Positions 11,241-16,112 of a stretch of DNA of 64,000 nucleotides are shown here, in pieces; the first letter of the stretch is position 1, and each line of letters opens with the position of its first letter. Both the position numbers and the translations under genes were made by a program. Source of the stretch: Alphaproteobacteria bacterium (GTDB lineage Bacteria > Pseudomonadota > Alphaproteobacteria > Reyranellales > Reyranellaceae); the NCBI GenBank assembly GCA_016869975.1, contig VGCZ01000005.1, forward strand, positions 1 to 64,000, read 5' to 3'. Under the pieces are notes generated by a model, which saw only the letters and a list, made by a program, of their open reading frames with translations, searched no databases and had not been told where the DNA came from.

Positions 11241-12356
11241 ATGGCGGCGCGCAAGCGACGCGCGCTGATCGCGGCCACCGCCGGCCTGCTCGCCAGTGGG
11301 CTGGCCGGGCGCGCGTTCGCGCAATACCTTACGCCGCCCCCCGCCAAGCCGCCCGCCCCCGCGCCGATGAAACCACCCGCAAAAACGCCTCCGGCCGATC
11401 CCCTGGCGATCGTCAGGTCGGCGGTGGTGCGCATGCAGTCCTTCAGCCACGGGCCGTTCCCCTACACGGGGCCGGCCGAGGACGGACGCACGCCGTTCTT
11501 CGACGTGGTCGACCCGCTGAAACGGCGCGGCCGTCGCACGGCCTCGGGCGACGTGCTGCTGGAGGGCGTCACCTACAGCGACGATCGCGCGCTGATGTAC
11601 GTGCCGGCGGGCTTCGATCCGCGCCGACCGGCGCTGATCGTGCTGTTCTTCCACGGTCACGGCTCGATCATCGAGCGCACGGTGATGACCGATACCGACT
11701 TGCCGCGCCAGCTTACCGAGTCGGGCGCCAACGCGGTGCTGGTGGCGCCGCAATTCGCCTACGACGCCGCCGATTCAAGCCCGGGTAAGTTCCTGCGACC
11801 CGGTGCTTTCGCCCGCTTTGTCGACGAGTCGGCGACCAAGCTGGCGCGCCTGCTGACGCCGCAAGGCGCCGACCTCAGGCGCCTGTCCGGCGTCTTCAAC
11901 CAGGCGCCCGTGCTGCTGGTGGCGTTCAGCGGCGGCTACAAGCCGGCGGCCTACGCGCTGGCGCGCGGTGGCGCCGCGCATCGCATCCACGGTGTGGCGC
12001 TGCTCGACGCGCTGTACGACGAGGAGGACAAGTTCGCGACGTGGTTCGCCGACGCGCGGAAGAGCGGCTTCCTCATCAGCCTGTTCACCGAATCGACGGC
12101 GGCCAACCAGACGAAACTGCGCGACCTGCTGGCAAAGCGTCGCATCGCCAGCAGCTCATCGCTGCCGGCGAGCCTGTCGCGCGGCACCGCGGCTTTCGTC
12201 GCCGCCGGTGGCATCGATCGTCACGCGCGTTTCGTGCTCGAAGGCCCACCGCGCGATCCGGTCAAGGCGATCCTGGCGGCGATCCCGGGCTATCGCATGA
12301 AGCCCGAGCTGCCGCCGGCGAAGCCGCCCGCCGGCAAGCCGACGGCCAGGCGTTAG
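11241..12356 (+). CDS. Secreted alpha/beta-hydrolase-like protein, function unknown
   Basis: A 371-residue protein beginning at the ATG 4 bases after the membrane SpeE-like gene. The N-terminus is a signal peptide ([18 protein letters not shown], cleavage near GRAFAQ), followed by a Pro-rich linker ([15 protein letters not shown]) and a folded domain. Segment [11 protein letters not shown] near residue 133 resembles an alpha/beta hydrolase oxyanion region, and [17 protein letters not shown] near residue 222 resembles a Ser nucleophile elbow (SGG rather than a full G-x-S-x-G). The C-terminus is again Pro/Lys rich ([14 protein letters not shown]). Catalysis is unproved. Its stop overlaps the stop of the convergent helicase gene by four bases. 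Confidence 0.65.
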
Positions 12357-13891
12357 CGCGGGCGACCGCTGTCGCGGCGGCGCTCGTCGCCGCGCATGAA
12401 GCCCATGCCGCCCAACGGATGGCCGCCCTCGCGACGCGGCGGGTGATTGCCGTCGCGGTGGTGATGGGTCCGCTCGCCTTGGGCGTGCTCGCCACGCTCG
12501 TGGCGCTCCGGGCGACCATGCTTGTGGCCATGCTGGTGCGGATGGCCGTGCTTGGCGTGGCTATTGCCGTCGCGGTGGTGATGCGCCCGCTCGCCCTGGG
12601 CGTGCTCGCCGCGCGGCGCGTCGGCACGCTCGTGCCGCTCCGGCCGGCCATGCCGGTGGCCTTGCTGGGTATGGCCGTTGTGGGGACGCTGATGCTGCGG
12701 ACGCTTCTTCTGCGGCGGGCGGTGACCCTGCTCGCGCGCGCCCGGCTCGGGCGCCGGCACCGGGGCGCCGTCGCGGTCGGTACGCGCGATGGTCATGCGG
12801 ATTGTGCGCTCGATGTCACGCAGATAGGCGCGCTCCTCGTGGTCGCAGAACGAGATCGCGATGCCGGCGGCACCGGCGCGCGCCGTGCGGCCGATGCGAT
12901 GCACGTAGCTCTCGGGGATGTTCGGCAGGTCGAAATTGACGACGTGCGTGACGCCATCGACGTCGATGCCGCGGGCGGCGATGTCGGTGGCGATCAGGGC
13001 GCGGCAGTCGCCGTCGCGGAAGCCGCGCAGCGCGCGCTCGCGCTGGCCCTGGCTCTTGTTGCCGTGGATCGCGGCCGATTCGATGCCGGCGCCGGCGAGG
13101 TAGCGCACGACCTTGTCGGCGCCGTGCTTGGTGCGGGTGAAGACCAGCACGCGTCGCATCGACTCGTCGCGCAGCAGCTCGACCAGCATCTCGCGCTTCT
13201 GCGCCGTCTCCAGCAGGATCACGCGCTGCTCGACCTTCTCGACGGTCGTGGCGACCGGCGTGACGGCGACGCGCGCCGGATCGGTCAGCAGGTCGTCGGC
13301 CAGCGCCCCGATCTCCGTCGGCATGGTGGCCGAGAAAAACAGGTTCTGGCGCTTGGCCGGCAGGGCCTTCACCAGTCGGCGGATCGGCACGATGAAGCCG
13401 AGGTCGAGCATCTGGTCGGCCTCGTCGAGGACGAAGATCTCGACCAGGTCGAGCCGCGCCGTGCGCTGCTCCAGGTGGTCGATCAGGCGGCCCGGCGTGG
13501 CGACGAGGATGTCGACGCCGCCCTGCAGGGCGCGGGTCTGCGGCCCGTAGCTGACGCCGCCGAAGACCGTCGCCACCGACAGGCGCAGGAAACGGCCGTA
13601 GACGCGGAAGCTCTCGGCGATCTGACTCGCCAGCTCGCGCGTCGGGCTGAGGATCAGGGCGCGGCAGCCGCCACGCGGCGCGCGCTTCGGATCGGCGGCG
13701 AGACGCTGCAGGATCGGCAGCGCGAAGGCCGCGGTCTTGCCGGTGCCGGTCTGGGCGATGCCCAGCAGGTCGCGGCCGGCGGCGACGTGTGGGATGGCCT
13801 GCGCCTGGATCGGCGTGGGCGTGGTGTAGCCCTCGGCCGCCAACGCGCGCAACAGCGGCTCGGCGAGACCAAGGTCGGTGAAGTTCGTCAC
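12353..13891 (-). CDS. DEAD-box ATP-dependent RNA helicase (RhlE-like) with His-rich tail
   Basis: ATP-dependent RNA helicase of 512 residues. All core motifs are visible: Q motif around Gln29 ([11 protein letters not shown]), Walker A AQTGTGKT (46-53), [20 protein letters not shown] at 156-159, [23 protein letters not shown] and [10 protein letters not shown]. The start is taken at the GTG at 13891 because [17 protein letters not shown] is the usual N-terminus of this family and GAGAAAG lies eight bases upstream; a second GTG at 13918 would add nine residues. After about residue 389 the protein turns into a His/Arg/Gly-rich tail with an internal duplication. Likely roles are RNA remodelling in ribosome assembly or decay. 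It converges with the preceding hydrolase-like gene. Confidence 0.94.
12446..12652 (-). repeat. In-gene duplication encoding the His-rich helicase tail
   Basis: Two copies of a coding repeat. The first covers 12563-12652 (residues 414-443, HGRPERHER...HHHRDGN) and the second 12446-12520 (residues 458-482), which lacks five residues (ADAPR) present in the first. Their 3' halves are 117 bases apart and nearly identical, for example GCCGTCGCGGTGGTGATG in both on the plus strand. The spacer encodes [14 protein letters not shown]. This looks like a local tandem duplication of a disordered tail. Confidence 0.85.
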
Positions 13892-14161
13892 TAGATATAC
13901 TTTCTCAAACGCGACCACCGGCCCACGCGACCGATTCGGTCGGCGCGGATCGTTCCGGTGGAACTTTCGATAGACGCCCTGCGTGTCAGGCGGCTGGCTT
14001 CTTGATTGTTTGTACCCAGCTGGACGGCCGATAAACGTCGGCGCTCACGCGGCTGAATGCTCAAGGCTGCTGAGGCAGCGGCGTGCTTCTCTCACGTCGC
14101 GTGTGTCGGGTCAAGCGACCCGCCGTCGCGGGCCTGGCCGCGAGCGGCTATCATGTCGGGC

Positions 14162-15472
14162 ATGAACGCGCTCCATGTCTCCGCGCCGTGGTGGAAGCCC
14201 GATAGCGGCCGCACGCTCTCGATCCGCGGCGGTCGACCGCTCGGCGGTACATACCCGGTCAGCGGCGCCAAGAACGCCGCGCTGCCGCTGATGGTCTCGG
14301 CCCTGCTGACGCCCCACCTCGTGACCCTGCACAACCTGCCGGCCAATCTCGACGTCGCCGTGCTATCGGCGCTGCTGCAGCGACTGGGCGCCGGGCTGAG
14401 CTGGTCAACGGGCGCGTCGGGCTTGTCACTGACCGTCTGCGCCGATCGCGTGCACGCCGAGAAGATCGATCGCGAGCTGGTGGCGCGCATGCGCGCCTCG
14501 GTGCTGCTGCTGGGTGCCGTGCTGGCGCGCTGCGGCGAGGCCAGCCTGCCGCTGCCCGGCGGCGACGCCATCGGCCTGCGCGGCATCGACTTCCACATCG
14601 CCGGGCTGCGCGCCATGGGCGCCGCCATCGAGCTCGAGGGTGGCATGATCCACGCCCGCGCGCCGCGTGGCCTGCGCGGCGCCGAGATCGCGTTGCCGCT
14701 GCCGTCGGTGGGCGCGACCGAGAATCTGCTGTTGGCCGCCGTGCTGGCGCGGGGCCGCACGGTGATCCGCAACGCCGCACGCGAGCCGGAGGTCACAGAC
14801 CTCGCGACCTGCCTGATCGCCATGGGCGCGCGCATTGACGGCCTCGACACGCATGTGCTGACCGTCGAGGGCGGCGCGCCGCTCGCAGGCGCGGTGCACA
14901 CGGTGATGCCCGACCGCATCGAGATTGGCACGCTCGCCTGCGCTGCGGCGATCACCGATGGCGCGCTGACTTTGGCGAACGCGCGTCTTGATCTGCTGGG
15001 CGCCGCCGGGCCGCTGCTGCGGGCGGCCGGCGTCGAGCTGGAGACGATCGAGGGCGGCGCGGTCGCGCGCCGCGCGGCTGGTGGCCTCGTCGGTGTCGAT
15101 TTCACCACGCAGCCCTATCCCGGCTTCGCCACCGACCTTCAGGCGCCGGTCATGGCGCTGATGACCACGGCGCGCGGCGCCAGCGCCATCACCGAGACGA
15201 TTTTCGAGCAGCGCTTCCGTCACGTCGACGAGCTGCGACGCATGGGCGCCAACATCATCGTCCGTGGGCGTACCGCGCTGGTGCGCGGCGTGCCTGGCCT
15301 GGGAGGCGCCGCCGTCACCGGCGGCGACGTGCGCGCCGCCGCCGCGCTGGTGATCGCCGGCCTGGGCGCGCGCGGCGAGACTGTGCTCGACGGTCTCGAC
15401 CATCTCGACCGTGGTTACGACGGCATAACCGCCAAGCTCAAGGCCTGCGGCGCCGACATCACGCGCGCCTAA
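14162..15472 (+). CDS. murA: UDP-N-acetylglucosamine 1-carboxyvinyltransferase (MurA), Asp-type
   Basis: First committed enzyme of peptidoglycan synthesis, transferring enolpyruvate from PEP to UDP-GlcNAc in the cytoplasm; 436 residues from the ATG at 14162 (an ATG at 14153 is the alternative). Family landmarks are present: SGAKNAALP with the catalytic Lys-Asn pair, VGATENLLLAAVLA, MPDRIEIGTLACAAAI, the YPGFATDLQAP Asp region, GGDVRAAAALVIAG and LDHLDRGYDGI. The active-site loop reads LPGGDAIGLRGID, where the usual catalytic Cys (Cys115 in E. coli) is Asp, codon 14564-14566. Asp-type MurA enzymes are active but not alkylated by fosfomycin. Whether this is the only MurA of the genome cannot be told from the window. 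Confidence 0.93.
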   Translation: MNALHVSAPWWKPDSGRTLSIRGGRPLGGTYPVSGAKNAALPLMVSALLTPHLVTLHNLPANLDVAVLSALLQRLGAGLSWSTGASGLSLTVCADRVHAEKIDRELVARMRASVLLLGAVLARCGEASLPLPGGDAIGLRGIDFHIAGLRAMGAAIELEGGMIHARAPRGLRGAEIALPLPSVGATENLLLAAVLARGRTVIRNAAREPEVTDLATCLIAMGARIDGLDTHVLTVEGGAPLAGAVHTVMPDRIEIGTLACAAAITDGALTLANARLDLLGAAGPLLRAAGVELETIEGGAVARRAAGGLVGVDFTTQPYPGFATDLQAPVMALMTTARGASAITETIFEQRFRHVDELRRMGANIIVRGRTALVRGVPGLGGAAVTGGDVRAAAALVIAGLGARGETVLDGLDHLDRGYDGITAKLKACGADITRA

Positions 15473-15490: not shown

Positions 15491-15556
15491 TGTCATCCCG
15501 AGCGCAGCGAGGGATCCAAGCATGCCACTAGATCCCTCGCTGCGCTCAGGATGACA
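15491..15556. repeat. Palindromic dispersed repeat, family 1, full copy
   Basis: Arms at 15491-15516 and 15531-15556 are complementary at 25 of 26 positions around a 14-base loop. The core AGCGCAGCGAGGGATC is shared with the copies at 29000, 46412 and 62970. It lies between the convergent murA and DinB-like genes and could form a strong hairpin in either transcript, so it may also serve as a bidirectional terminator. Confidence 0.85.
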
Positions 15557-15569
15557 GGGAGGTGTCGCC

Positions 15570-16112
15570 CTAGCGCTCCGGTAGCCCGAGCGCGCGCAAC
15601 TCGTCGCGGCGCAGCGCCAGCTCGTCGCGCATGAAGAACTCGTCGAGCTGTGGCGGCTTCACCGAGGTGCCCGACAGCATCGCGTGCGCCTGGCCACGAT
15701 GGTGGATCTGGTGGACGAAGAGGTGGGTCAGCACGTCCTCGACGCGCTCGACCGGTGCCTCGCGGCCGCGCCGCTTCATCACCACGGGAATCGCCAATCT
15801 GTCATCGGTCAGGCCGTCGCAGAAGGCCAGCAGACGTCGGTCGCTGGCGCGCTGCGCGGCGTCTAGCGCGGCGAAGTCCTCATGTGGCACGAAGGCATAG
15901 GCGCGCTCGACGGCCGCCTCCCGCAAATCCTCCAGCGAGTCGATGTAATAGCCGTCGACCATCAGGATGTGGTTCAGCGTGGCGCGGATCGAGGGGAAGA
16001 AGCTCGTGCGCTCCGCCGCGTACTCGGCCGGGCTCAGCCTGGCGCAGGCGTTCAGCAGCCGGTGGTTCGACCAGGCGTTGTTGCGGGCCATGGCGCGCAA
16101 GTGCTCGATCAC
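15570..16112 (-). CDS. DinB-family putative metal-dependent hydrolase
   Basis: A 180-residue member of the DinB/YfiT-like four-helix-bundle superfamily. It begins with MIEHLRAMARNNAWSNHRLL, typical of the family. The His residues that would bind a divalent metal are visible: His in LNHILMVDGYY near residue 48 and two in LFVHQIHHRGQAHAML near residues 132-136. Some family members act as thiol-dependent transferases or detoxification enzymes; many are DNA-damage induced, but the reaction here is unknown. Its ATG overlaps the stop of the upstream ogt gene by four bases (ATGA), so the two are translationally coupled and may share a role in repair or detoxification. Confidence 0.88.
   Translation of the reverse strand: MIEHLRAMARNNAWSNHRLLNACARLSPAEYAAERTSFFPSIRATLNHILMVDGYYIDSLEDLREAAVERAYAFVPHEDFAALDAAQRASDRRLLAFCDGLTDDRLAIPVVMKRRGREAPVERVEDVLTHLFVHQIHHRGQAHAMLSGTSVKPPQLDEFFMRDELALRRDELRALGLPER

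Follow-up and report, generated by a model that had tools for sequence, protein, structure and literature searches.

Fosfomycin alkylates Cys115 of MurA, and Asp at this position keeps activity and prevents inactivation in several natural or engineered MurAs (PMC4790336, PMC5652432). The window, the whole 64,000-nucleotide stretch of alphaproteobacterial (Reyranellaceae) DNA that we analyzed, contains a murA gene with an Asp codon at that site. The original prediction called the organism resistant unless a second, Cys-type MurA is its main enzyme, which raises the question of whether the Asp enzyme is the only MurA of this bacterium or one of two. The best reading, to which we give a probability of roughly three in four, is that the gene encodes a functional, fosfomycin-insensitive MurA isoenzyme beside a Cys-type MurA that was not assembled.

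The Asp-type murA gene and its surroundings

The gene occupies positions 14162..15472 of the forward strand within an enclosing ORF of 14057..15472 (+) in the ORF listing of the window, and its likely start is the ATG at 14162 or the in-frame ATG at 14153. The encoded protein scored 478 bits against the TIGR01072 murA equivalog profile (cut-off 392.7). Its alignment to E. coli MurA, with the same register in PDB alignments, placed the Asp codon GAC (14564..14566, +) at the Cys115 position, as originally predicted. The codon lies in the active-site loop LPGGDAIGLRGID (14552..14590, +), where E. coli Arg120 is retained and Pro121 is replaced by Gly. K22, N23, R91, R120, S162, G164, D231, R232, D305, R331, D369, R371, and R397 are all kept, and only C115D and L370V differ among the catalytic and substrate residues. 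The claim that the other catalytic positions are intact was correct for the aligned catalytic residues, but it missed Leu370Val, which is found in the Asp-Val-Arg triplet (15326..15334, +) corresponding to E. coli D369-L370-R371. An N-terminal PWWKP motif (14186..14200, +) directly precedes the MurA domain. We found no clade-specific Cys elsewhere that could fill the role of Cys115: a Cys at protein position 120, nearly invariant among the Asp-type relatives, is also present in the canonical Cys-type copy of the sister genome G003.

The predicted fold of the protein (pLDDT 90.5) most closely resembled solved MurAs, at a TM of about 0.9, among them the C115D/C116D mutants 3v4t and 6q0a. NikO, 27% identical to the window protein, ranked below the MurA chains, and AroA ranked lower still. 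As modeled, the EPT fold of the protein is thus nearest to MurA, not to AroA or NikO.

The gene is flanked by a DEAD-box RNA helicase (12353..13918, −) and a DinB-like protein (15570..16112, −), both named from sequence and both also neighbors in the sister genome. It is not linked to other mur genes, and neither conserved neighbors nor a phosphonate or fos cluster were evident from the neighbor translations. Just past the murA stop, at 15492-15555, there is a near-perfect inverted repeat with GTCATCCCGAGCGCAGCGAGGGATC arms, whose RNA fold reached −62.7 kcal/mol (z −8.5). Additional degenerate copies occur both within the window and in other parts of the genome, and the repeat may be a terminator or a dispersed palindromic repeat. 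A different dispersed repeat of ~130 bp was observed in contigs C3, C5, C7, C9, C19, C45, C57, C60, and others of the same assembly (e.g., L075-L081). It is shared with the sister genome at 80-93% identity in both orientations and resembles a small family of mobile repeats.

A second-copy lineage with Asp at the Cys115 site

In the phylogenetic tree, the Asp-type sequences formed a clade of 36 members (support 100/100) from Reyranellaceae-type bacteria, Stella/Allostella, and Acetobacterales, on a long stem branch of 1.2 changes per column. This clade was placed outside the family's own Cys clade, which leaves an origin of the Asp copy by duplication within the family unsupported. Of 37 genomes from the same family, 11 (the window's own counted) had an intact Asp-lineage copy, one had a copy cut by a contig end, and another had a copy broken by a frameshift. 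Further homologues, 66-77% identical and without exception carrying Asp, came from a scan of named genomes: Stella (Allostella) vacuolata, Acidisoma, Acidisphaera, Limobrevibacterium, Roseomonas-type genera, and others. All family copies with a readable loop had Asp as well. Because every clade homologue with a readable loop agrees, Asp at the Cys115 site is no chance or sequencing error. Plasmid-borne spread was also considered and rejected, as no plasmid match to the Asp MurA exceeded 60% identity and all seven alphaproteobacterial plasmid MurAs checked were Cys-type.

The original prediction overlooked that the gene belongs to a paralogous clade with co-varying active-site residues of its own, Leu370Val among them. 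Eleven positions were nearly fixed differently between the Asp clade and canonical alphaproteobacterial enzymes, including S110P, C115D, P121G, Q309P, L370V, S373A, S375A, and R391G, and eight of the eleven are close in sequence to the catalytic loop, D305, D369, or R397. The PWWxP motif ahead of the MurA domain was invariant in the aligned Asp paralogues. The dN/dS of the Asp copy was 0.08-0.24 versus 0.03-0.09 for the Cys copy, or 2-4 times the canonical value in two matched genome pairs, and the Asp copy is under purifying selection.

Another MurA was present in 12 of the 13 family genomes and 21 of the 22 named genomes with an Asp copy (two sets that overlap partly), and every second MurA whose loop was sampled was Cys-type. 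The two types were about 50-56% identical. The Asp gene thus belongs to a separate lineage of second copies, which the majority of relatives maintain beside a normal MurA. For this reason, the organism cannot be called resistant on the Asp gene alone, and the original claim of resistance is unsupported as stated.

Three observations concern the fate and origin of such genes. In Vineibacter terrae (G009/G077), a frameshift interrupts the Asp-type murA (L123, 8925-10215), so the second copy appears dispensable in that species. In Acidisphaera sp. S103, hisD was present, the Asp copy was found, and a second MurA was not, which makes real loss of the Cys copy possible within the clade. Two small-genome alphaproteobacteria carry Asp MurAs outside the clade, with the loops GGDAIGNR (L041, G056) and GGDDIGPR (L052, G043), and no other full-length MurA match was found in these two genomes. 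Asp at this site is thus likely to have had more than one origin within the Alphaproteobacteria.

The expected Cys-type murA locus in the genome assembly

The genome assembly to which the window belongs (G000; 4.84 Mb, 96 contigs) is rated 100% complete. The search for a second murA returned none in this assembly, whether by protein, by family, or with the canonical MurA of the sister genome, leaving the Asp copy as its only MurA; what the search did reveal is that the expected Cys-type locus is missing together with hisD. The other two PF00275 matches, G000:C29:11137-12327 and G000:C16:57878-59143, look like two AroA-type EPSP synthases, apparently of different classes, and not like a second MurA.

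In the sister genome, the Cys-type murA lies between dcd and DUF2948-hisG-hisD (gene names from translations), and this dcd-murA-DUF2948-hisG-hisD block was conserved in the relatives compared. HisD was absent from the G000 assembly, and the same query matched in all seven other genomes searched; HisA and HisF were present in G000. Contig C3 of the assembly runs colinear with the left flank of the sister's block as far as G003 C10:75570 and stops 2 kb past this point within a truncated gene, and the block, which starts at about 80245 in the sister, would be expected just beyond the contig end. The right-hand flank was sought in G000 and not located. As the histidine pathway lacks only this block, an assembly gap is a better explanation than a deletion, and judging from these sequence comparisons the Cys-type murA block is probably missing through such a gap. 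We consider it very probable that this organism has a Cys-type MurA copy, and the caveat of a second enzyme in the original prediction probably applies. Separately, the sole infA found in the assembly (G000:C32:25368-25574, L083) is divergent and shares 52-57% identity with the infA that belongs to the missing hisD/murA block.

Alternative readings and comparison with known systems

Were the Asp enzyme the sole MurA, with the Cys gene truly lost and replaced, the organism would have intrinsic fosfomycin insensitivity at the target level. The single MurA in an assembly rated complete, the Asp-only Acidisphaera genome, and an infA present only as a divergent copy elsewhere, which suggests that the block might be dispensable, are all in line with this. 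Against it, HisD has disappeared as well yet HisA and HisF are still there, the colinear contig breaks off within a gene where the block would be expected, and none of the relatives compared at this locus lacks the block, so that we regard true loss as unlikely. Slightly less improbable, though still doubtful, is that the paralogue diverged to another role, acting on a different UDP-sugar or conditionally outside bulk peptidoglycan, with Asp as part of that change. The long stem, the clustering of diagnostic changes near active-site positions, the added PWW motif, the raised dN/dS, and the separation from other mur genes would fit such a shift; set against them are the retention of the presumed UDP-GlcNAc- and PEP-binding residues and a murA equivalog score above the cut-off, unlike NikO-type enzymes. 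That the copy is non-functional and decaying, as the Vineibacter frameshift and an internal stop in one MAG copy could suggest, is highly improbable given that the reading frame is unbroken here and in most relatives, that all catalytic residues are retained, and that dN/dS is 0.08-0.24.

Under the favored reading of an active second isoenzyme, the Asp-type MurA would move the enolpyruvyl group of PEP onto UDP-GlcNAc; the loop Asp would stand in for Cys115, and no thioether adduct with fosfomycin could form. The enzyme belongs to an old paralogous clade that normally coexists with a housekeeping Cys-type MurA, the gene for which was probably lost from the assembly here. The most likely benefit would be wall-precursor synthesis while fosfomycin or another thiol-reactive compound blocks the Cys enzyme. 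By analogy with characterized enzymes, the window's Asp MurA is likely active and fosfomycin-insensitive. Whole-cell resistance would hinge on expression of the Asp copy, drug uptake, and whether this copy can support wall synthesis by itself. More tentatively, the clade may represent an undescribed second MurA family of Reyranellaceae, Allostella, and Acetobacterales that acts as a built-in bypass under thiol-directed inhibitors or oxidants and has replaced the Cys enzyme in a few lineages.

The experimental literature agrees with the original statement that natural Asp-type MurAs are fosfomycin-insensitive (PMC4790336, PMC5652432). The Asp MurAs of M. tuberculosis, B. burgdorferi, and Chlamydia are resistant, and an Asp-to-Cys change makes the first two sensitive again (PMC4790336). 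In E. coli isolates, Leu370Ile is linked to lowered susceptibility to fosfomycin (PMC4790336), which makes L370V of interest. C115D was missing from an E. coli saturation-editing library grown in vivo, for which the authors allowed incomplete saturation as a possible reason (PMC9842644); its absence suggests that some MurA contexts may not tolerate Asp. The Wolbachia MurA carries Cys (PMC4062475). Roseomonas mucosa is reported to be fosfomycin-resistant (PMC5471672, PMC10712127), which we did not count as evidence for the Asp clade. The open-licence literature searched contained no description of paired Cys- and Asp-type MurAs in Alphaproteobacteria or any Gram-negative, and nothing pertinent on Reyranella with MurA or fosfomycin was found at title and abstract level.

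A Gram-negative lineage that pairs Cys-type and Asp-type MurAs in one cell offers a natural experiment on the purpose of Cys115. The substitutions that accompany C115D, namely S110P, P121G, Q309P, L370V, S373A, S375A, and R391G, may account for the tolerance of Asp here and its apparent failure in E. coli in vivo. The case is also a warning that one murA in a draft genome is not enough to deduce resistance.

Asp-type MurA, paired MurAs, and the underlying chemistry are already known, and the present lineage is a modest new variant. It shares the natural Asp at Cys115 with the active, fosfomycin-insensitive MurAs of M. tuberculosis, B. burgdorferi, and Chlamydia trachomatis (PMC4790336), but those are cited as the MurA of their species, whereas the alphaproteobacterial clade coexists with a Cys-type enzyme and has its own co-varying residues, a comparison made with the M. 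tuberculosis, Borrelia, and Chlamydia enzymes by description only. Two MurA isoenzymes per cell resemble the MurAA/MurAB (MurA/MurZ) pairs, described as a Gram-positive trait (PMC4062475), while here the pair occurs in Gram-negatives and includes an Asp-type enzyme. The same substitution, Cys119Asp, gave Enterococcus faecium high-level resistance with little activity loss, the enzyme staying active and turning insensitive (PMC5652432), but that was a clinical point mutation of an existing enzyme and not an old paralogue. Compared to the canonical alphaproteobacterial MurA (GGCAIG), the Asp enzyme belongs to the same family and has the same remaining catalytic set, while the canonical enzyme differs in Cys115, Leu370, slower evolution, and, in most relatives compared, its dcd-murA-hisG-hisD neighborhood.
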